Of a DNA stretch of 64,000 nt, positions 35,542 to 64,000 are shown piece by piece. The notes beneath the pieces were generated by a model that was not told the DNA's origin, did no database searches, and saw nothing but the letters and a program-made list of their open reading frames with translations. The DNA is taken from NCBI GenBank assembly GCA_000143165.1, contig CP002084.1, forward strand, positions 1,054,001 through 1,118,000, in the 5' to 3' direction. The stretch is from Dehalogenimonas lykanthroporepellens BL-DC-9 (lineage in GTDB: Bacteria; Chloroflexota; Dehalococcoidia; Dehalococcoidales; Dehalococcoidaceae). Position numbers and translations under genes: made by a program. Positions within the stretch are counted from its first letter, which is position 1. Every line of letters begins with the position of its first letter.

Positions 35542-38500
35542 TTGACCGTCTGGGCTACGATACCACTTATTACGTCATTGGCCTATCTGGTTCTTCTAGT
35601 GATACTTCTGCCGAACCTGGAGCGAAAAATCGGCCGGGCTCTGGCATATTTCGCCGGGACAGCTTCGGTTTGGGGTTTTACCTCCTTCATGCTCCACCTC
35701 GATGCCCCTGAATCGCAGAGCCTTTTCTGGAACAAGCTTCTTATCATAGCTCTTACCTGGACGCTGGTGGCTTTTTTCCACTTCATCCATGTCTATACCG
35801 GTAAGAGCAAAGCCCCATCCCTGGCCGCCAGCTATGTCGGACTGGGCATTATTGCTTACCTGTCACTGAGTGGCAATATCATAACCCAGGTTCAAGTTAC
35901 TCAGGGACTGATTACCCAGACGACAACACCATATATCTGGCTGATCGCCCTGATGGCAGTCATTCTGACAATCTTGAGTGTTCTGGCACTGATTCGAGTT
36001 TACCGCTCGTCTGCCAGAAACGAACAGCGGATACCCCCGATAATAATACTGACCGGCATGTTGATTTCGGTCACCGCCGGTTTCACCAATCTCAGTAATA
36101 ACCCAATGGTATACGGACTGCCCATAGACCAGCTGGCCAGCCTGGTAAACCTGGTACTGATAACTTACCTCATTTTTCAACACCGTCTTGTCAGACTCAA
36201 CAATTTCAACCTGCAAAAAAGATTCTCCTACGTTCTGTTGACACCACTGGGTCTGTTTTCCCTGGGAGGACTGGTATCCATTACCATGGCCTTGAACGGT
36301 AACACTCCCGAAATCCTCGGCTTCAACGCCTGGGCCGTCATCCCGCTGGTGGCCAGCATAGTTTATGTAATTCTACTATTGCTGGTACTCCAGGACACCG
36401 AAAAGAAAGCCAGCCGGTATTTCGCCTATTTTTTGAGTGTGGCCGCCTTCTGGGGATTCAGTTCCTTCATGCTGGTTTTCAACTCCGAAGCCACCTCGGG
36501 TCAACTACAGTTCTGGAATGAAATGGTCGTGGTGGCTATCGCCTGGATTGGCGTCGCTTATTACCATTTCGTAAGAATTTACATCAACAAAACCGGCGGA
36601 ATCTGGGTCTATCTTGGCTACGGCTTTACCCTGGCAATCCTGGTTCTGGCCTTGAACGGGGTGGTGGTGTCGAATGTCAGCCTGGAAAACGGTTATATCG
36701 TCCATGATATCAGGCCTTGGGACATCATCATCGGTTCAGTGATAGCGCCATTTGTCCTATCAAGCGTTTACATGCTGGTGCGCCGTTACCGGCAATCTAC
36801 GGATCCGGTCGACCGTAATCGGACAATTTATCTGATACTGGGTTCCGGAGCCCTTATTCTTTTGAGCTACCTGACACCATTTACTCCGGCTTTGGCTGGC
36901 TTGACCACCGACCATATCGGCAACATCATCAATGCCGCTCTGATAGCGTACGCAATCTCCCGTTTCCACCTGCTGGATATCAAGCTGGTTGCCCGGCGGG
37001 GCATAACCTTACTGGTGCTAATCCTCGGACTGGCAGGAATTTACGGCGGTGTTTTATTCATAACACTGCGAACCTTTCCTGATATACCTCAGATAACCAT
37101 GATGGTAATCACCGGGGTCATCGTAACCTTGCTGGCCTTGACCGCCCGACCGCTGGCTCACTTCATCGCCATTACCGTCGACCGTTTGTTCTACCGGGAA
37201 AACTATGTTCACCGGCAGGAACTGCTCAATTTTTCCAACCGGATGAGTTATATCCTGAATCTGGAAGAGCTTTCCCAGGCTATACTGCCGCCTCTGGCTA
37301 AAGCGTTGAATATCACCCATGCGGCGCTTCTCTTCCAGAACAACCCGGCGGCGGATTTCAATGTCCAGTACATCTACCCGGACGAACATGAACTGAAGAA
37401 TACCTTCCGAATGCCCACCGACAATCCTATCGTGGAATGGATGGACCGCAAAAACCGGGCCATCTCGCCATCACAAATACACTCCATGGCCGAATTCAAG
37501 GGGCTGTGGCAATCAGAAAAAGAGCAGTTGGCCAACGCCGACCTGGCACTCATTCACCCCATCAAGAGCCGGGACAAACTGGTGGGCATTATCGCAACCG
37601 GCCACAAGATAAATGGCGGCGTTTATTCAACGGAAGATCTGGAGCTTATCAACCGGATATCATCACAGGCAGGGGTCATCATTGAAAACGCCCAATTGTT
37701 CATCCAGGCCAACACCAGAGCCAATACCGATGAATTAACGGGACTGTACAACCACCGCCATTTCCATGAAAGAGTGGAACAGGAAATCAGCCGGGGCAGT
37801 CGTTTCGGTATAACGTTTTCATTGATTCTGCTGGATCTGGATCTGTTCAAGGTTTATAACGATATCTACGGCCACCTGGCTGGAGACCAGTTGTTACGCA
37901 AAGTCGGCCAGATGATACAGAGTTCCATTCGTAACATTGACCTGCCTTTCCGTTACGGCGGCGAGGAATTTGCCGTCCTGCTTCCGGAAACCCGCATCGA
38001 TGACGCTTACCGGGTTGCCGAACGTCTGCGCAAGACCATCGAAGCCCGTTCCAGTTTCCGGGAAATGCCGGTTACCGCCAGCCTCGGAGTGTCCAACTGG
38101 CCGAATGATGGTCTGTTGAAGGAAGAATTGATTCATCGAGCCGATACCGCCTTATATCGGGCCAAACGGACAGGACGCAACCGTACCTGCCTGGCATCGG
38201 AAACAGGGGGACCGGAGTCTCTTGACCCGGGCACAGAACCGGAAGCCCAGCCGCAGGCGCTTTCCATCATCTACGCGCTGGCGGCCACCGTGGATGCCAA
38301 GGACCATTACACCTACGGGCATTCCCGAAAAGTGAGCGAATACGCTGTATCCATTGCCGAAGCAATGAACATGCCGGAAGAAACTGTACATTTCATTCGA
38401 GCGGCCGGTCTGCTCCATGATATCGGTAAGATCGGCGTGCCCGATTCCATTCTTTCCAAACCAACTGCGCTGGACCTCAAGGAATGGGAACCAATTCGCA

Positions 38501-38868
38501 CCCACCCGGAACTGGGGGTGGAAATTCTGAAACATGTGGTGGACCTGTCGAAATGCCTGCCGGCTATCCTTCATCACCACGAACACTGGGACGGAAGCGG
38601 GTATCCCCACAAACTGAAGGGAGAAGCCATACCGCTGGAGGCCCGCATACTGACCGTTGCTGACGCTTATGATGCCATTACTTCGCCCAGACCTTACCGA
38701 GACCAGTTGTCGCTGAATGAGGCTCTGGCAGAACTGCGAAGATGTGCCGGAACCCAGTTCGACCCGCAGTTGGTTGAAGTCTTCTGCCAGGTTATGCAAC
38801 CGAACAACGAAACGCATGACGGTACTGAACGTCGCACGGACAGCAAAATACCCGAGCCGGAAGAATAA
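35542..38868 (+). CDS. Membrane c-di-GMP enzyme: double 7TM-like, GAF, GGDEF and HD-GYP domains
   Basis: 1108 residues from TTG 35542. Residues 1-530 hold some 14-16 transmembrane helices arranged as two similar halves (both contain a WGF-SSFML/TSFML segment), like duplicated HisKA_7TM sensors. A GAF domain spans about 555-720. The GGDEF domain (728-890) has an active RYGGEEF site and an inhibitory-site RNID five residues before it. The HD-GYP domain (905-1090) has LLHDIGKIGVPD and HHEHWDGSGYP. Thus both cyclase and phosphodiesterase look intact. Its ligand is unknown. It follows pilT, which fits pilus or surface control. Confidence 0.92.
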   Translation: MTVWATIPLITSLAYLVLLVILLPNLERKIGRALAYFAGTASVWGFTSFMLHLDAPESQSLFWNKLLIIALTWTLVAFFHFIHVYTGKSKAPSLAASYVGLGIIAYLSLSGNIITQVQVTQGLITQTTTPYIWLIALMAVILTILSVLALIRVYRSSARNEQRIPPIIILTGMLISVTAGFTNLSNNPMVYGLPIDQLASLVNLVLITYLIFQHRLVRLNNFNLQKRFSYVLLTPLGLFSLGGLVSITMALNGNTPEILGFNAWAVIPLVASIVYVILLLLVLQDTEKKASRYFAYFLSVAAFWGFSSFMLVFNSEATSGQLQFWNEMVVVAIAWIGVAYYHFVRIYINKTGGIWVYLGYGFTLAILVLALNGVVVSNVSLENGYIVHDIRPWDIIIGSVIAPFVLSSVYMLVRRYRQSTDPVDRNRTIYLILGSGALILLSYLTPFTPALAGLTTDHIGNIINAALIAYAISRFHLLDIKLVARRGITLLVLILGLAGIYGGVLFITLRTFPDIPQITMMVITGVIVTLLALTARPLAHFIAITVDRLFYRENYVHRQELLNFSNRMSYILNLEELSQAILPPLAKALNITHAALLFQNNPAADFNVQYIYPDEHELKNTFRMPTDNPIVEWMDRKNRAISPSQIHSMAEFKGLWQSEKEQLANADLALIHPIKSRDKLVGIIATGHKINGGVYSTEDLELINRISSQAGVIIENAQLFIQANTRANTDELTGLYNHRHFHERVEQEISRGSRFGITFSLILLDLDLFKVYNDIYGHLAGDQLLRKVGQMIQSSIRNIDLPFRYGGEEFAVLLPETRIDDAYRVAERLRKTIEARSSFREMPVTASLGVSNWPNDGLLKEELIHRADTALYRAKRTGRNRTCLASETGGPESLDPGTEPEAQPQALSIIYALAATVDAKDHYTYGHSRKVSEYAVSIAEAMNMPEETVHFIRAAGLLHDIGKIGVPDSILSKPTALDLKEWEPIRTHPELGVEILKHVVDLSKCLPAILHHHEHWDGSGYPHKLKGEAIPLEARILTVADAYDAITSPRPYRDQLSLNEALAELRRCAGTQFDPQLVEVFCQVMQPNNETHDGTERRTDSKIPEPEE

Positions 38869-43810: not shown

Positions 43811-43902
43811 TGGCGGAGGGAGGGAGATTCGAACTCCCGACCCCGGTTTCCCGAGGTAAGCGCTTAGCAGGCGCCCGCACTAGACCACTATGCGATCCCT
43901 CC
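43811..43902 (-). tRNA. tRNA-Ser (anticodon GCU)
   Basis: The acceptor stem GGAGGGA pairs with TCCCTCC, the discriminator is G and CCA is encoded. The anticodon loop reads CTGCTAA (GCU), the long variable arm of class II tRNA is present, and the T loop is GTTCGAATC. Length and long arm fit serine. Confidence 0.95.
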
Positions 43903-57664: not shown

Positions 57665-57730
57665 GAGCCGGCAACCACTAACACCTGACAAGATAACGAA
57701 AACACTAAGATAGCGCGAGGATAATTGTCG

Positions 57731-58678
57731 ATGGATGAACTGAAAGTATTTACCGGTAACGCCAACCCGGCTCTGGCCGGAGCGGTAGCCGACTACCTGG
57801 GCATCCCGCTGGGCAACTGCAAGGTCTTTCAGTTTTCCAATGAGAATACCTTCGTCCGCATCATGGACAATGTCCGCAATCGGGATACCTTCGTGATACA
57901 GCCGTTTTCGTCCCCGGTCAACCAGAGCATCATGGAAACGATGATCATGATCGACGCCTTGAAACGCGCTTCAGCCGGACGCATCACCGCCGTCATCCCC
58001 TATTACGGCTACGGCCGCACCGACAAGAAAGACCAGCCCCGGGTGCCCATCACCGCCCGGCTCATCGCCGACCTGCTGACCGTGTCCGGCGCCAACCGGG
58101 TGCTGACCGTAGACCTGCACGCGGCCCAGATTCAGGGTTTTTTCAACATACCGGTGGACGAACTGTCAGCCATCAACCTTATAACCAACCATGTGAAAAA
58201 GATGAACTTGGACAACCTGGTGGTGGTGGCCACCGACATCGGCATCACCAAACGGGCGCGGGACTTCGCCGAAAGGCTGGATGCCCCGCTGGCCATCATT
58301 GAAAAAAGAAGGCTGGGCAACGACGACCGCACCGAAACCATCAATATCATCGGCGACGTGAAAGGGAAGATTGCTCTGACCATCGACGATGAAATCGACA
58401 CCGCGGGTTCTCTGACCAACTCCGTCCAGACGCTCCTGAAAGCCGGCGCCACCGAAGTATACTCCTGCTGTACTCATCCCATTTTCTCCGGGCCGGCCAT
58501 TGAGCGCATCGCCGAATCCCCGGTCAAGGAAGTCATCGTCACCGATACCGTGCCGGTACCGCCGGAAAAGAAGCTGGACAAGATTACAGTGCTGTCCATC
58601 GCACCGCTACTGGGTGAAGCCATTCACCGCATCCATACCGGGCTTTCGGTGGGCGCCATGTTCCAGCAGGATGCCTAG
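57731..58678 (+). CDS. prs: Ribose-phosphate pyrophosphokinase
   Basis: 315 residues from ATG 57731 (AGGA 9 nt upstream); a TTG two codons earlier is less likely. Makes PRPP. YYGYGRTDKKDQPRVPITAR, VDLHAAQIQGFFNIPVD and the PRPP loop LTIDDEIDTAGSLTN. PRPP is used by nadC elsewhere in the window. Confidence 0.96.
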   Translation: MDELKVFTGNANPALAGAVADYLGIPLGNCKVFQFSNENTFVRIMDNVRNRDTFVIQPFSSPVNQSIMETMIMIDALKRASAGRITAVIPYYGYGRTDKKDQPRVPITARLIADLLTVSGANRVLTVDLHAAQIQGFFNIPVDELSAINLITNHVKKMNLDNLVVVATDIGITKRARDFAERLDAPLAIIEKRRLGNDDRTETINIIGDVKGKIALTIDDEIDTAGSLTNSVQTLLKAGATEVYSCCTHPIFSGPAIERIAESPVKEVIVTDTVPVPPEKKLDKITVLSIAPLLGEAIHRIHTGLSVGAMFQQDA

Positions 58679-58731: not shown

Positions 58732-59103
58732 TCAATTGATGGAATGGGGAGGATAGTCTCCACCTTTATCATCCCCGGTTCCCTTTAACACTTCGTCAGC
58801 ATACTCCGGGTATAACTTCCGGACGCAGGCAGGGCATAAACCATGGGTGAAAGTGGCATCGGAATGGGATGAGACAAAAGTTTCCACCGTCTGCCAATAA
58901 CCTTGGTCATCTCTGACGTTTTTACAGGAAGCACAGATAGGCAACAGCCCTTCCAGAGTTTTCACCTGCGCCAACGCCTCTTCCAATTCAGCGTTTTTCT
59001 GCTGTAATTCCCGTTTGACCGAGATGAGCTCGTTCATAATACCGCTGATGGCTTCGTGCCAGTGGCTGTCGTCCCCGGATATATTCACGTTCTTATCCGA
59101 CAT
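58732..59103 (-). CDS. Short coiled-coil Cys4 protein (CASCK-type)
   Basis: 123 residues. Residues 20-52 are a heptad-rich coiled coil (ELQQKNAELEEALAQVKTLE). Then LLPICASCKNVRDDQGYWQT and HGLCPACVRKLYPEY, with C57, C60, C90 and C93 as probable zinc ligands. This module is usually the C-terminal end of response regulators or sensor proteins; here it stands alone and overlaps the cobalamin-binding gene by 11 nt. The function of the module is not established. Confidence 0.8.
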   Translation of the reverse strand: MSDKNVNISGDDSHWHEAISGIMNELISVKRELQQKNAELEEALAQVKTLEGLLPICASCKNVRDDQGYWQTVETFVSSHSDATFTHGLCPACVRKLYPEYADEVLKGTGDDKGGDYPPHSIN

Positions 59104-60217
59104 ATGTCCGAGCCTCCTCCGTCAACCGGGATAATACCACCGGGGCTTCATCCGCCTGATATGCGGCACCATCGGCGCCGAATGAAGCGGCATAGTCAGG
59201 GAATCGATTCAAGATGTAACCGCTGGCGATAACCCGAATACCGGGTGACGATTCCCGTCGCACCAGACCGATAATCTCCCACAACGCCGGGCCGGAAGAC
59301 GGCAAGGCCATTGACAAGGCCAGGGCGACAGCTTTCTGTTCACGGGCCAGATCAACCACCGCGGTAGCGGGTGTATTGGCGCCCAGGTACATGACCCGCC
59401 AACCGGCCATCTCCAGCAGGTCGGCAGTCATGCGGGAGCCGATTTCATGAAGTTCGCCGGTAACGCAGGCGACGACGACAGTACCCTTAACGGGCGAAGC
59501 GACCTGGCGACGGATACGGGGATACAACTCCGACATAATGAACTGAGTGGCGGCGCTGAAATAATGTTCATGGGCTACCGTAATCTTTCCCTGATGCCAC
59601 AGCGTGCCAACTTCATAGAGGCAGGGCTGGAAGATGTCCAAATACAGGTCACGAATGGACAGACCGTCATCAACAGCTTTGAATATCATCGCCGCCGCTG
59701 TTTCCCGGTCTCCGGCAAGAAGGGTTTTCAGGAAACGTTCAGCCAATTCGGGAAGAGGCTCCTCCGCAACGGCTCCGGCGACGGGCTTGTCTGCACCTGA
59801 CGCCAGCTCCCGACGTCCGGCCTCGATGACAGCTTCGGCTTCAATGAAGGCTTCCGACGGCAAATACCTCTTCAGAGCGGCTGACTCAGCATCCAGATTC
59901 ATCCCGATAAAGTGCGACGGCACCCCCCTGGTTGAAAGACCCTCTTTCAGCCAGGCAATCTTGTCGGTGAAAACACCGGGAACGCCGGAACGAATGGCTT
60001 CGCTCAGTTCTATCAGTTCCTGGCGGACATTGGCCGAATGCTTGCCGAAATCCATTCCGTGACGTTTGGAAACATCGCTCCTCAGGGATTGCTGGGCAGT
60101 GGTAATTTCGGTAGCCAGAAGGTCTAAATTAGAATAAATCAATTCAGCAATCTGTTTATGGTTGGGCATCAACACATCTCCCTGTGAATCATTTTGCGGG
60201 TCTTCCTTAATTACCAC
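59093..60217 (-). CDS. CarH-like cobalamin-binding sensor protein
   Basis: 374 residues (or 358 from the ATG at 60169, MPNHKQ). Residues 18-140 are a helical domain of unknown type. Residues 155-235 form the helical cap with W207 and E217-H218, an exact W-x9-EH signature. The Rossmann B12 domain follows with E255-L-H257-E-I-G260 (E-x-H-x2-G, H257 as cobalt ligand) and Ser302 at the expected 41-residue spacing. No MerR DNA-binding domain exists, so output is presumably by protein contact with its operon partners. A corrinoid methyltransferase-type role is the alternative. Confidence 0.85.
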   Translation of the reverse strand: MVIKEDPQNDSQGDVLMPNHKQIAELIYSNLDLLATEITTAQQSLRSDVSKRHGMDFGKHSANVRQELIELSEAIRSGVPGVFTDKIAWLKEGLSTRGVPSHFIGMNLDAESAALKRYLPSEAFIEAEAVIEAGRRELASGADKPVAGAVAEEPLPELAERFLKTLLAGDRETAAAMIFKAVDDGLSIRDLYLDIFQPCLYEVGTLWHQGKITVAHEHYFSAATQFIMSELYPRIRRQVASPVKGTVVVACVTGELHEIGSRMTADLLEMAGWRVMYLGANTPATAVVDLAREQKAVALALSMALPSSGPALWEIIGLVRRESSPGIRVIASGYILNRFPDYAASFGADGAAYQADEAPVVLSRLTEEARTYVG

Positions 60218-61120
60218 CTAACCAAGGCTACTGCGGTTTTTACCGGTCTTTTTGCTGAGATACATGAGTTCATCGGCCCGGCGTATGATGGTTTCTGAAT
60301 TATCGCCGGGTCGGGCCACAGTTACCCCGGCAGACACGGTGACGCTCAATTCCAGATCATTTTGCGTCAACATAGAGCAGGAGACCAGATTCCTCATCCG
60401 CTCCGCAATATCGTAAAGTTGCAGGCCGTTCACATTAGTACCCACGATAACAAACTCCTCACCGCCCCACCTGAAGAATAACGATTGCGGGCTTCGGATA
60501 TTAGCCATAATCGTCCGCGCAACCATCTTCAGAACTTCATCGCCGATATCATGACCGTAGTTATCATTAACTGCCTTGAAGTTGTCAATATCGAACAGGA
60601 TAACTCCAAAAGGCCAATCATAACGATTAAACTCATTAAACTTGGTATCAAGGGTAATATTGGCATAACGCCGATTACCAGACCGGGTCAATTCATCGAT
60701 AAGAGACAGCTTTTCCAGTTCAGAAATTTGTTCCTGAAGCTGGAAATTCTTTGAATTATCGCTGAAAGTCTCAATACCTCCGATTATTTTCCCGTCATCA
60801 TTACGTATCGGCATCACCTTTACCGTAACCGGCACGCGGTGTCCGTCCCGGTGAAGCATGAACACGGAGGCCTGATGGGGCTTACCATCGGTCATCGTAG
60901 CTGTCAGCGGACACCCGTTCAGACAAAGCCGGGTTCCCTGGTCGTCGGTGTGGACCAGGATATTATCGGCGCATCTGAAGCCGAGGACTTCATCTGCAGT
61001 CCGCCCGGTCAGCTCCGCCGCGGCCTTATTCCAATAAGAGATTCTTTTGTCGCAATCAACAAAATAGACACCTTCGCTCAGATTGTCCAACAAGTTTTTA
61101 TACAGTTCCGCCTGCATCAT
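60218..61120 (-). CDS. PAS-GGDEF diguanylate cyclase
   Basis: 300 residues. PAS domain at 1-125 (LLDNLSEGVYFVDCDKRISY and CLNGCPL with Cys near the sensing pocket), a short coiled linker (QLQEQISELEKLSLIDELT), then GGDEF with intact FRWGGEEFVIVG near residue 218. No RxxD inhibitory site precedes the motif, unlike the other GGDEF protein here. Cytoplasmic. Overlaps the kinase gene by ATGA and abuts the cobalamin gene without a gap. Confidence 0.9.
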   Translation of the reverse strand: MMQAELYKNLLDNLSEGVYFVDCDKRISYWNKAAAELTGRTADEVLGFRCADNILVHTDDQGTRLCLNGCPLTATMTDGKPHQASVFMLHRDGHRVPVTVKVMPIRNDDGKIIGGIETFSDNSKNFQLQEQISELEKLSLIDELTRSGNRRYANITLDTKFNEFNRYDWPFGVILFDIDNFKAVNDNYGHDIGDEVLKMVARTIMANIRSPQSLFFRWGGEEFVIVGTNVNGLQLYDIAERMRNLVSCSMLTQNDLELSVTVSAGVTVARPGDNSETIIRRADELMYLSKKTGKNRSSLG

Positions 61121-64000
61121 AATAAGGCATTTACCTTCTCTTCCAGCTCATGTCGTTCAAAAGGTTTACTGATATAGGGTATGTTATGGGTATTGAGGTA
61201 AGTTCTGGTAGACAGGTCTGACGTATCGCCGGTGATAAACAGCACCCGGGAAACCATTTTCGGCCAGCGGACCTTGATCTCATCGAGTAACTCTATGCCG
61301 CTCATACCTGGCATCCTGATATCCAGAATGACAATGTCATAGGTGTTATCCACCAACTTGTCCAAAGCTTCCTGGGGCCCGTAGCATTCCTGTACTTCAT
61401 GCCCCTGGCGGGTCAGGATTACTCTGATCAATGCCCCGACCGACCTTTCATCATCCACCACCAGTATTTTGGCGCTTCGTATAGCCTTTACCGGTTGAGT
61501 CTCCTGATTCTCAACCGCAGATACTGTCTCCACCGGGGTCATCGGTAATTCAACGATAAATGTGGTGCCTTTTCCCACAACAGTCTTTACCGAAATACTG
61601 CCACCGTGTTCCTTAATAATACCCATGGACAAGGCCAGCCCCAGACCGGTGCCTTCACCCGGGTCTTTGGTGGTAAAGAACGGCTGAAACAGTTTGCTTT
61701 TAACCTCATCAGACATGCCAGGCCCGTCATCAGTAATCAGAACGCGAATATGACCATCAGATTTTTCCGTTTTGACAACCAGGACACCCTTATCATGCGC
61801 TTTCTTCATCGCGTATTCAGCATTGACAATGATGTTCAGAAACACCTGTTGCAACTGGCCGGCGTCAGCGACGACTTCGGTAATATCCCGGGCGTAGTCC
61901 CTGACAATGGAGATATTGGAGGTTTCCAGTACATACCGGCGCATCTCAATGGTGTTTTCCAGCACATCTATTATGTTGACTGCCGATTTCACCGGCTTCG
62001 ACTGACGGGCAAAAGTCAGCATCCGGCGCACTATGTCCTTGACCCGCTGACTGCCTTCATTGATGATATGCAGGTCTTCCTTCATGTCATCGGGAACATC
62101 GGGCCGGGTCATCAGTAGTTCAGAGAAGCCTATAACACCGGTCAGCGGGTTGTTGATTTCGTGGGCGATACCGGCGGCCATTTCACCGACCGCCGCCAGG
62201 CGGCTGGACATTTCGGCTTTTTCACGAAGCAGGCGTTCATTTTCCTCCGCCCGTTTCCGGCCGGAAACATCCTTGATGATATGTACCGACCCCACCATGT
62301 TACCGTCGACGTCCATTATCGGCGAAGCGGTAGCCTCCACCCACAAACCCAGCTTTTCATCGAAATACTCGCTGGTTTCCACCTGTCGGGTGGTCAGAGC
62401 GCGGGCATAGGGACAATCCGGGTGCGGCCCTTTAAGCCCGTGAATCACCTCATAGCATCGCTTACCCAGCAGTTCACCGGGTTTTCGGCCCAGCACCCGG
62501 GCGAAAGCCTGGTTAACCCTGGTTATTCTGTGCCCGGTATCGACCAGAGCGACCATATCGGTGATGGAATCGAAGGTGGCCAGCCATTCGGCGGCCGAGC
62601 GCAAAGCCTCTTCTTCCGCCTGTTTACGCTCGGTGATGTCTATCATGATACCGCGAAGCTTAACCGGCTGACAGCCGGCTTGCTCCACGCTGACAATGTT
62701 CCTCAGCCAGACAGATTTGCCGTCTTTTTTCAGAAACCGATATTCCAGCGAGTGGTCCCGACCGGCCCGGGCGGCGGTAAGACAATATTTCGGCGCCCAG
62801 TCCCGGTCTTCCGGATGGATATGATCCGCCCAGAACTGTAAATCGGTGAACTCCTCCGGACGGTAGCCCAGAATCCGTCCGACCTGTGACGCCAAATAGG
62901 TCCACCTGTCCTGTTCGATATCATATTCCCAGGAGATGGACTCGGTGTTTTCCGCCAGTTGACGGTATTTTTCTTTCGACTCCGCCAGCGCTCGTTCCCG
63001 GTTAATCTGCTCTGTAATCACTTCAGTATAAACGATGATACCACCGACAGAGCCATCCTTTTCGAACCAGGGACGACATTCCCAGCGAGTCCACTCGACG
63101 GTGCCGTCCTCTCGGACGAATTCGTCACGGTCGGCACGGCAGATTTCACCGGCCAGGGCTCGTTGATGTACATCACGCCATTTTTGTGGCAGGTCAGGAA
63201 AGACATCATAATGGTGCCGGCCGATGATATTCCGAGGACCTAAATTGTATTCATCAAGGTATCGCTGGCTGACGTAGATGTAGTTCAGATTACGGTCATG
63301 AACCGCGATACCGGCCTGGTCGTGTTCAATGATATAACGCATCAAATTCAGGGTGTGGTTCAATTCACGGCGCGCGCTTACAGCTTCGGTCTCATCCCGA
63401 ACCGTGGAAACCATTACTCCCTGGTCCGGTATCGGGATATTGGCCGCGGCGACGACGCGCTTTCCCCCGTCTTTCCGGGTTATCTCAATGTCTTCCCAGT
63501 GCATCCGGGCTGGATCGCTACTTTCGATATCGGCCATAATACGGGACACGATAGCCTCGCGGTACCCGGCGTCAGGATAAACCTTCTCAAAAAAGGTGGC
63601 TATATCGGTGATTTCTTCCTTCGGCCAGCCGTATATCTCTTCGAAACGCGAATTCATGTAGGTAACCTGGCCGTCACCTGTATTGTTGATGGCCAGACCG
63701 ATGGGCAACTGGTCGATTATGGTCTGAATGAAAAGATTGCGATTTTTCAGTTCATCAGCTTGCAGTTTTAATTCTTCCTCGGCTTTTTTACGCTTGGTAA
63801 TATCCCTCGCCAGCGTCAACACAGCGGGTTTACCCTGCAATTCAAACCTGTGGATAACGACTTCAACAGGAATCTCGTGTCCATCCTTGTGTCGAAAAGC
63901 GGATTCCCGGGTGACTTTCTTTACAGCTTCCAGTATTTTCATGATATCCGGAGGAGTTACTCCGAATTTTTCCCAAACCACAATGTCCCTTGGGCCAAGT
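61117..64000 (-). CDS. Multi-PAS hybrid histidine kinase with receiver domain (5' end outside window)
   Basis: At least 960 residues; the frame is open to the window edge (GPRDIVVWEKFGV), so the start is missing. At least four PAS/PAC units are seen, with ends such as LTLARDITKRKKAEEE and RGIMIDITERKQAEEE. The H-box is LAAVGEMAAGIAHEINNPLT, the HATPase boxes are NIIVNAEYAM, DDGPGM and GEGTGLGLALSMGI, and the C-terminal receiver has VVDDERS and phospho-Asp in IVILDIRMPGMSG. No membrane helix is visible in this part. Heads the signalling operon. Confidence 0.93.
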   Translation of the reverse strand, partial: LGPRDIVVWEKFGVTPPDIMKILEAVKKVTRESAFRHKDGHEIPVEVVIHRFELQGKPAVLTLARDITKRKKAEEELKLQADELKNRNLFIQTIIDQLPIGLAINNTGDGQVTYMNSRFEEIYGWPKEEITDIATFFEKVYPDAGYREAIVSRIMADIESSDPARMHWEDIEITRKDGGKRVVAAANIPIPDQGVMVSTVRDETEAVSARRELNHTLNLMRYIIEHDQAGIAVHDRNLNYIYVSQRYLDEYNLGPRNIIGRHHYDVFPDLPQKWRDVHQRALAGEICRADRDEFVREDGTVEWTRWECRPWFEKDGSVGGIIVYTEVITEQINRERALAESKEKYRQLAENTESISWEYDIEQDRWTYLASQVGRILGYRPEEFTDLQFWADHIHPEDRDWAPKYCLTAARAGRDHSLEYRFLKKDGKSVWLRNIVSVEQAGCQPVKLRGIMIDITERKQAEEEALRSAAEWLATFDSITDMVALVDTGHRITRVNQAFARVLGRKPGELLGKRCYEVIHGLKGPHPDCPYARALTTRQVETSEYFDEKLGLWVEATASPIMDVDGNMVGSVHIIKDVSGRKRAEENERLLREKAEMSSRLAAVGEMAAGIAHEINNPLTGVIGFSELLMTRPDVPDDMKEDLHIINEGSQRVKDIVRRMLTFARQSKPVKSAVNIIDVLENTIEMRRYVLETSNISIVRDYARDITEVVADAGQLQQVFLNIIVNAEYAMKKAHDKGVLVVKTEKSDGHIRVLITDDGPGMSDEVKSKLFQPFFTTKDPGEGTGLGLALSMGIIKEHGGSISVKTVVGKGTTFIVELPMTPVETVSAVENQETQPVKAIRSAKILVVDDERSVGALIRVILTRQGHEVQECYGPQEALDKLVDNTYDIVILDIRMPGMSGIELLDEIKVRWPKMVSRVLFITGDTSDLSTRTYLNTHNIPYISKPFERHELEEKVNALL

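Follow-up and report, generated by a model that had tools for sequence, protein, structure and literature searches.

The 64,000-nucleotide stretch of the Dehalogenimonas lykanthroporepellens BL-DC-9 genome that we analyzed (contig CP002084.1, positions 1,054,001 to 1,118,000 of the forward strand; hereafter the window) lies inside a single 1,686,510-base contig. At positions 58732 to 64000 it carries four tightly packed minus-strand genes encoding a hybrid histidine kinase, a PAS-GGDEF protein, a protein with vitamin B12-binding domains and a small protein with four conserved cysteines (the Cys4 protein). Our comparisons show that these genes are two separable units run together, kinase with GGDEF and B12 with Cys4. 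Judged by its sequence, the B12 protein is of the photocobilin type, and we favor, with moderate confidence, a model in which it would signal in trans to the Cys4 domain through a helix found in partners of related B12 proteins. The B12-Cys4 pair is the most interesting part of the operon, combining a photocobilin variant with a partner of unrecognized type, and the helix suggests a way in which stand-alone B12 photosensors could be paired with different outputs. Genomes and loci used in the comparisons carry G and L codes, G000 being the host genome.

The B12 protein is related to photocobilins

The B12 gene (59093..60169, minus strand) encodes 358 amino acids when read from its likely true ATG, as judged from Pfam, the alignment of relatives and a predicted structure. 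An N-terminal bilin-type globin domain (approximately residues 1-125) would be followed by a four-helix cap and a B12 Rossmann domain. The best sequence matches in the PDB are the photocobilins 8j2w/8j2x (E 6.7e-23) and 8j2y (E 3.3e-20), followed by light-responsive CtMerR (8jbs, E 7.1e-17) and then CarH (E 3e-13); methyltransferase corrinoid proteins score weaker, from E 1.4e-9 down. The signature of light-responsive B12 domains derived in PMC11796333, GxxW, EH, GxxH and GxxxP, is complete in the Rossmann domain (G188..W191, E201-H202, G238..H241 and G263..P267). The Trp, EH and ExH residues align with those in CarH and photocobilins, His192 directly follows the Trp and corresponds to His132 of CarH, and the protein has the CarH-like B12 module of photocobilins, including the W-(about 10)-EH and E/DxH motifs. 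In the AlphaFold model (mean predicted local distance difference test score, pLDDT, 89.9), residues 137-355 superpose on photocobilins with Z-scores of 26.5-27.4 and a root-mean-square deviation of 1.7-2.0 over 208-213 residues. The original prediction, in which cobalamin state or light was the input, is supported to the extent that the protein is of the adenosylcobalamin (AdoCbl) light-sensor type, and what it had called a cobalamin sensor is, on these comparisons, a photocobilin variant with a C-terminal B12 domain that would bind AdoCbl.

Membership in CarH itself was rejected. CarH is the best NCBIfam model, at 80.1 bits against a cut-off of 400, but no MerR-type DNA-binding domain is found: Pfam matches B12 domains only (B12-binding_2 and B12-binding), and the N-terminus matches bilin-type globins. 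Aligned by hhalign to the N-termini of presumed CarH-like B12 proteins, the N-terminal domain reaches 0.57%.

AlphaFold models residues 1-125 as seven helices. A profile of this domain (12 sequences) was searched against 177,635 PDB sequences and gave eight matches at E<=10, seven of which are photocobilins or allophycocyanin-type phycobilisome proteins. The photocobilins 8j2x and 8j2w come first (E 0.002 each), with 8j2y at E 0.11, four allophycocyanin-type proteins at E 0.063-0.16 and one unrelated enzyme at E 0.36, matches that point to the fused bilin-type globin fold of a photocobilin. In hhalign, the domain scores 74.7% against the C-terminal domain of eight canonical-order Chloroflexota proteins, among them a protein with a match to 8j2x over its residues 12-313; ten column shuffles gave at most 5.0% and four unrelated pairs less than 1%. 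That the AdoCbl domain of a photocobilin may lie at one end or the other is already stated in PMC10979010 (section 9).

Asp270 of SasPcob, described in PMC10979010 as contacting biliverdin, aligns with Asn47, so the bilin-anchoring residue is absent from the window protein (Asp270 is chain position 264, an offset of 6 checked on Trp61, His108 and Trp296). Across the 12 globin-first sequences this column holds Asp in four, Asn in three, the window included, Leu in two, and Tyr, Thr and Gln; Trp296 of SasPcob corresponds to Trp73 and is retained in 11 of the 12. There is no cysteine in the globin domain. A search for heme oxygenase (PF01126), which was positive in 3 of 14 control genomes, gave no match in any of the 11 genomes of the family. 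Given Asn47 and the absence of heme oxygenase matches from the family, bilin use by the window protein seems unlikely, and it is probably a B12-only protein. AbDPcob has a His at this position and is still counted as a photocobilin, so Asn47 lowers the prospect of bilin binding, not the kinship. A contig search with the B12 protein returned four loci, among which L042 was matched over most of the protein, and three records of a phage collection have partial B12-domain matches.

Some partners of B12-globin genes share a helix

We compared 13 loci: 12 globin-first loci among those fetched, a selection from a longer list of matches, and L038, where the contig ends within the B12 gene. All 13, the window included, have a co-directional open reading frame (ORF) directly downstream of the B12 gene, separated from it by -131 to 154 nt, the lower extreme probably reflecting a mis-set start. 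These partners comprise nine GGDEF proteins, two Cys4 proteins and two kinases, that of L037 being of the HWE type and that of L092 an ABM-PAS-HisKA protein; the B12-globin plus GGDEF arrangement occurs in Chloroflexota and Sphaerochaeta.

The partners in L037, L038, L042 and L091 have in common a segment like ISxxNNELVNxxRELAKKNxELxRLN. A hidden Markov model (HMM) trained on these four GGDEF or kinase partners, and on zero Cys4 proteins, was searched against 700 ORF records (625 distinct records from the loci and the remainder from the window, with a few repeats). Beyond the training four it finds only the two Cys4 partners, those of G220 (E 1.1e-8) and of the window (E 5.9e-7), and the next record follows at E 0.68. 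The 20 other Cys4-domain proteins in this set reach E 4.8 at best, and the window GGDEF protein has no match at E up to 5. In the window the helix spans 27 residues of the Cys4 protein (ISGIMNELISVKRELQQKNAELEEALA; 58969..59049, minus strand, or G000:C1:1112969-1113049).

A six-row helix profile (A7) was then searched against seven genomes picked by the analyst. All five genomes with a B12 gene (G000, G220, G118, G269 and G584) have the helix exactly once, encoded by the gene that follows it, while G007 and G010, both without a B12 gene, give no match, residual matches being E 0.345 or weaker. Most likely, in our reading, the B12 protein would act in trans by contacting its partner at this helix. 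PMC10979010 reports that isolated photocobilins alter the activity of a separate diguanylate cyclase (DGC) in trans, with a sign that depended on bilin. The same 2024 paper, which named the photocobilins, regards the role of those that stand alone as less well defined. The common partner helix is a specific candidate, open to mutation, for the means by which photocobilins recognize their partners.

Some loci show further arrangements. In L092 (5709-8416), the globin-B12 gene overlaps the kinase gene by 4 nt, and the kinase has an N-terminal antibiotic biosynthesis monooxygenase (ABM) domain. Three other Chloroflexota loci have a B12 gene without a globin domain and an adjoining STAS-PAS gene (L095:5542-7262, L096:4179-6144 and L097:1208-3264), with an additional short PAS-like gene in L096 and L097. 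They resemble a B12-controlled stressosome branch, in agreement with the STAS link proposed for SasPcob in PMC10979010. In L097, a small neighbor of the B12 gene (811-1224) looked globin-like, but hhalign does not support this, with values of 2.6% and 0.08% against the two globin profiles.

The Cys4 domain is probably an output or docking domain

The Cys4 partner (58732..59103, minus strand; 123 amino acids), delimited from its ORF, Pfam and profiles, consists of the helix and a CxxC...CxxC domain that no Pfam model matched. Twelve Cys4 sequences share the invariant residues C57, C60, C90, C93, K61, R64, D66, W70, E74 and H87. The domain is matched in 15 of 289 genomes of the class and 22 of 400 genomes of the phylum. 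It is C-terminal in every one of 13 longer proteins, 11 of which carry receiver, PAS, GAF, HAMP, HisKA_7TM, MASE1 or VUPS domains in Pfam (L114 only below the cut-off); those of L118 and L149 have no recognized Pfam family. Because of this C-terminal position after sensory domains, the Cys4 domain is probably an output or docking domain, presumably zinc-binding.

The short form, helix plus Cys4, is seen in the host and in G220, each time beside a B12 gene. Other short Cys4 frames include one of 156 amino acids in G303:C50 and partial matches in G008, G010 and G451, and membrane sensors ending in Cys4 are found at L115:1480-2616 (MASE1-Cys4) and L106:1504-2874 (VUPS-PAS-Cys4). The Cys4 profile, searched without a positive control, has no match in G640 and G641, the genomes of L042 and L044, and a plasmid collection gave one partial match to the Cys4 protein. 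The predicted Cys4 structure (mean pLDDT 77) has no PDB match in Foldseek better than E 0.54, and the best VIA-align Z-score of 3.9 falls on the helix; with so weak a model this is no evidence of a new fold.

Two separable gene pairs

Among the 11 family genomes the B12 protein is matched in just one, and hence the whole four-gene set is present in just one; a decayed remnant of the set occurs in one further family genome, G010. Relatives of the short PAS-GGDEF protein are found in G006, G007 and G010 besides the host, with a weak second match in G005. The congener G007 retains the arrangement of pyrophosphokinase, PAS-GGDEF (81.5% identity), hybrid kinase (44.9% identity) and hisA, with only 65 bases between the PAS-GGDEF and pyrophosphokinase genes and no trace of B12 or Cys4 genes in that gap. 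G006 has the PAS-GGDEF gene without the kinase. In G220, which belongs to the same order and another genus, B12 and Cys4 genes form a pair (43% and 64% identical) with no kinase or GGDEF gene adjoining; the two overlap by 19 nt if the Cys4 frame is read from its mechanical start, a TTG, and lie 2 nt apart if it is read from its ATG.

Because kinase and GGDEF stand alone in G007 and B12 and Cys4 stand alone in G220, the two units are separable. The second congener, G010 (L058, G010:C3:122000-138000), has the kinase and the PAS-GGDEF gene each in two frames, lacks the B12 gene and carries, directly after PAS-GGDEF, a truncated C-terminal Cys4 piece (residues 71-114, 70% identity). In this congener the operon seems to be in decay. 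G010 is a 40-contig draft whose frameshifts may be sequence errors, but loss of the B12 gene is less easily explained in this way. The Cys4 remnant suggests that the units were joined before the host and G010 split. A conserved four-gene pathway was therefore rejected, the set being confined to 1 of 11 family genomes and its parts occurring separately. The original prediction of a single pathway had been staked on whether related genomes keep the genes together, and that comparison came out against it. The only link between the B12 protein and the kinase and GGDEF proteins is the operon structure, from which coordinated expression may be supposed.

Operon anatomy and context

The ORFs confirm one packed operon of four minus-strand genes, as had been predicted. 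The junctions were given as a 4-nt overlap, a zero gap and an 11-nt overlap; the two overlaps stand (kinase stop and GGDEF start, 61117-61120; B12 and Cys4, 59093-59103), whereas the zero gap is doubtful. It arises only when the mechanical ORF start, GTG 60217, is taken as the B12 start. Relatives of the B12 protein align from ATG 60169, which has GGAG 8 nt upstream, so the zero gap probably reflects a wrongly chosen start codon and the likely gap is 48 nt. Base composition was considered as a sign that the B12-Cys4 pair had been acquired, and this was rejected: the GC content of the pair (B12 0.559, Cys4 0.495) is not apart from its surroundings (GGDEF 0.485, kinase 0.520, window 0.547). A gathering-threshold Rfam search of the window and L005 gave only one tRNA (43814-43902) and no B12 riboswitch near the operon. 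Scans of L005:4600-10900 gave 10 promoter matches against 6.3 +/- 2.8 in shuffles and 5 terminator matches against 7.2 +/- 3.1, so that neither scan is informative.

The hybrid kinase (61117..64000, minus strand; ORF and Pfam) has its 5' end outside the window. Its frame extends 566 bases past the window end (L005:7117-10566, 1149 amino acids), starting at the equivalent of position 64566. It has several PAS domains, HisKA, HATPase_c and a C-terminal receiver, the set of a CckA-like hybrid kinase; CckA itself was rejected, since the CckA equivalog models score 205.1 and 220.6 bits for the in-window part against a cut-off of 1000. The PAS-GGDEF protein (60218..61120, minus strand; 300 amino acids; ORF and Pfam) has the intact GGEEF active-site motif and a Pfam GGDEF score of 135 bits, as a DGC should. 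On reading, the RxxD inhibitory site was not seen at its usual place in this protein.

GGDEF domains are matched in all 11 family genomes, which also all contain long GGDEF frames of 840-1122 amino acids. The host genome has one other GGDEF protein (window 35542-38868, plus strand; 1108 amino acids), with HisKA_7TM, GAF, GGDEF and HD (HD_5 family) domains, and no PilZ or EAL match. Reading the translations of the flanking genes, we find the kinase ORF divergent from hisA and the operon converging on a ribose-phosphate pyrophosphokinase gene (57725-58678). Past the window, on the far side of hisA, a kinase and a LuxR-type regulator (by reading) overlap by 44 nt (L005:11922-13389) and have close relatives in G007.

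Discussion

In the model that we favor, the hybrid kinase and the PAS-GGDEF protein would form a phosphorelay and cyclic di-GMP (c-di-GMP) pair, as in G007 and, in broken form, G010. The B12 protein would hold AdoCbl between its CarH-like helical cap and the Rossmann domain, with a globin that probably lacks bilin. Loss of the adenosyl group, by light or by cobalamin turnover or redox, would change the cap and the oligomeric state, and this change would be relayed in trans to the partner through the NNELVNxQRELAKKNxEL-type helix. In GGDEF and kinase partners the helix leads into the catalytic domain; in the host it leads into the Cys4 domain.

Several observations weigh against this model. The strict helix is present in only 6 of 13 partners, and six GGDEF partners from one other Chloroflexota family (L070, L093, L094 and L098-L100) have a different, similar-looking helix; the L092 kinase matches at only E 2.4. 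Profile A7 includes sequences that it finds again, and its seven genomes were chosen by the analyst. Two of the nine GGDEF partners, those of L038 and L042, lack an intact GG[DE]EF motif. The fold by itself does not discriminate, since methyltransferase-type 3ezx superposes with a Z-score of 24.0, above CarH. We take the host to be an obligate groundwater anaerobe, which has no obvious use for light. Finally, since bilin governed the sign of the effect in trans in PMC10979010, its direction in the host is not predictable.

The alternatives divide over what the B12 protein controls and what it senses. It could directly regulate the PAS-GGDEF protein, the kinase or both, in one circuit of four with Cys4 as an accessory and B12- or light-controlled c-di-GMP as the output. 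Tight co-directional packing fits such a circuit, as does the decayed set in G010, which suggests an arrangement older than the host species. The predicted association of B12 with c-di-GMP genes also holds outside the genus, where GGDEF genes follow B12 genes of the same architecture in 9 of the 13 loci. In the window, however, the GGDEF gene precedes the B12 gene, and its product lacks the partner helix of three B12-linked GGDEF partners, so a direct link from B12 to GGDEF is at most tentative there. Together with the separate pairs in G007 and G220 and the lack of PilZ and EAL matches, this makes the single circuit unlikely. Far less probable still, the B12 protein could serve a methyltransferase system as its corrinoid component and lie in a signaling operon by chance. 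The fold is in common, and MtgC, MtbC, MtaC and MetH models do match, but all far below their cut-offs (60.3 against 215.3 bits for the best); photocobilins score far better, and the best NCBIfam model is CarH. No methyltransferase gene adjoins the B12 gene in the host, the outcome on which the original prediction had relied, and none was noticed on reading a partial listing of the neighbors of related loci. We rejected this assignment.

Compatible with the two-unit model, and possible though in our view somewhat doubtful, is a B12 protein that senses cobalamin status (AdoCbl level or redox) rather than light. The host is presumably an organohalide respirer whose respiration depends on corrinoids, and the lack of heme oxygenase matches in the 11 family genomes and the change from Asp270 to Asn47 make the bilin half of photosensing probably absent. 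Against this, the protein retains the residues holding the adenosyl group for photolysis and also the His after Trp, the one that in CarH gives the bis-His light state. With a B12 photosensor in an anaerobe that depends on corrinoids, the choice between light and B12 status becomes directly testable.

Returning to the two-unit model, we tentatively suggest that the helix could be a portable socket through which one B12 photosensor family serves interchangeable separate outputs (GGDEF, HWE kinase, Cys4 and perhaps HisKA). Cys4 might then be an unrecognized output domain, controlled by B12 without bilin in an organohalide-respiring anaerobe.

Comparison with known systems

No paper on this operon, on the helix of the partners or on the Cys4 domain came up in a search of the open-licence literature that used no sequence words for the helix or Cys4. 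Within Chloroflexota, L070, L091, L093, L094 and L098-L100 have a B12-globin gene followed by an output gene, as in the host; the host differs in that its output is Cys4, not GGDEF, and its local GGDEF gene is upstream and separable. CarH (5C8D) has the GxxW/EH/GxxH/GxxxP signature and the His after Trp in common with the host protein, which has a globin in place of a matched DNA-binding domain, and we propose no DNA target for it. Photoglobins, or bilin-biosynthesis-associated globins, are treated in PMC10151467 and, as cited by other papers, in Schneider 2022.

Photoglobins likewise join a bilin-type globin to B12 domains; in the host, the globin has no Cys and the genome no heme oxygenase match. 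The photocobilins SasPcob and AbDPcob (8J2W, 8J2Y), as described in PMC10979010, combine a CarH-type AdoCbl module with a bilin-type globin, as the host protein does, and have a DGC as fused or trans partner. In the host, by contrast, the globin is N-terminal, Asp270 is replaced by Asn, and the partner is a separate Cys4 protein.

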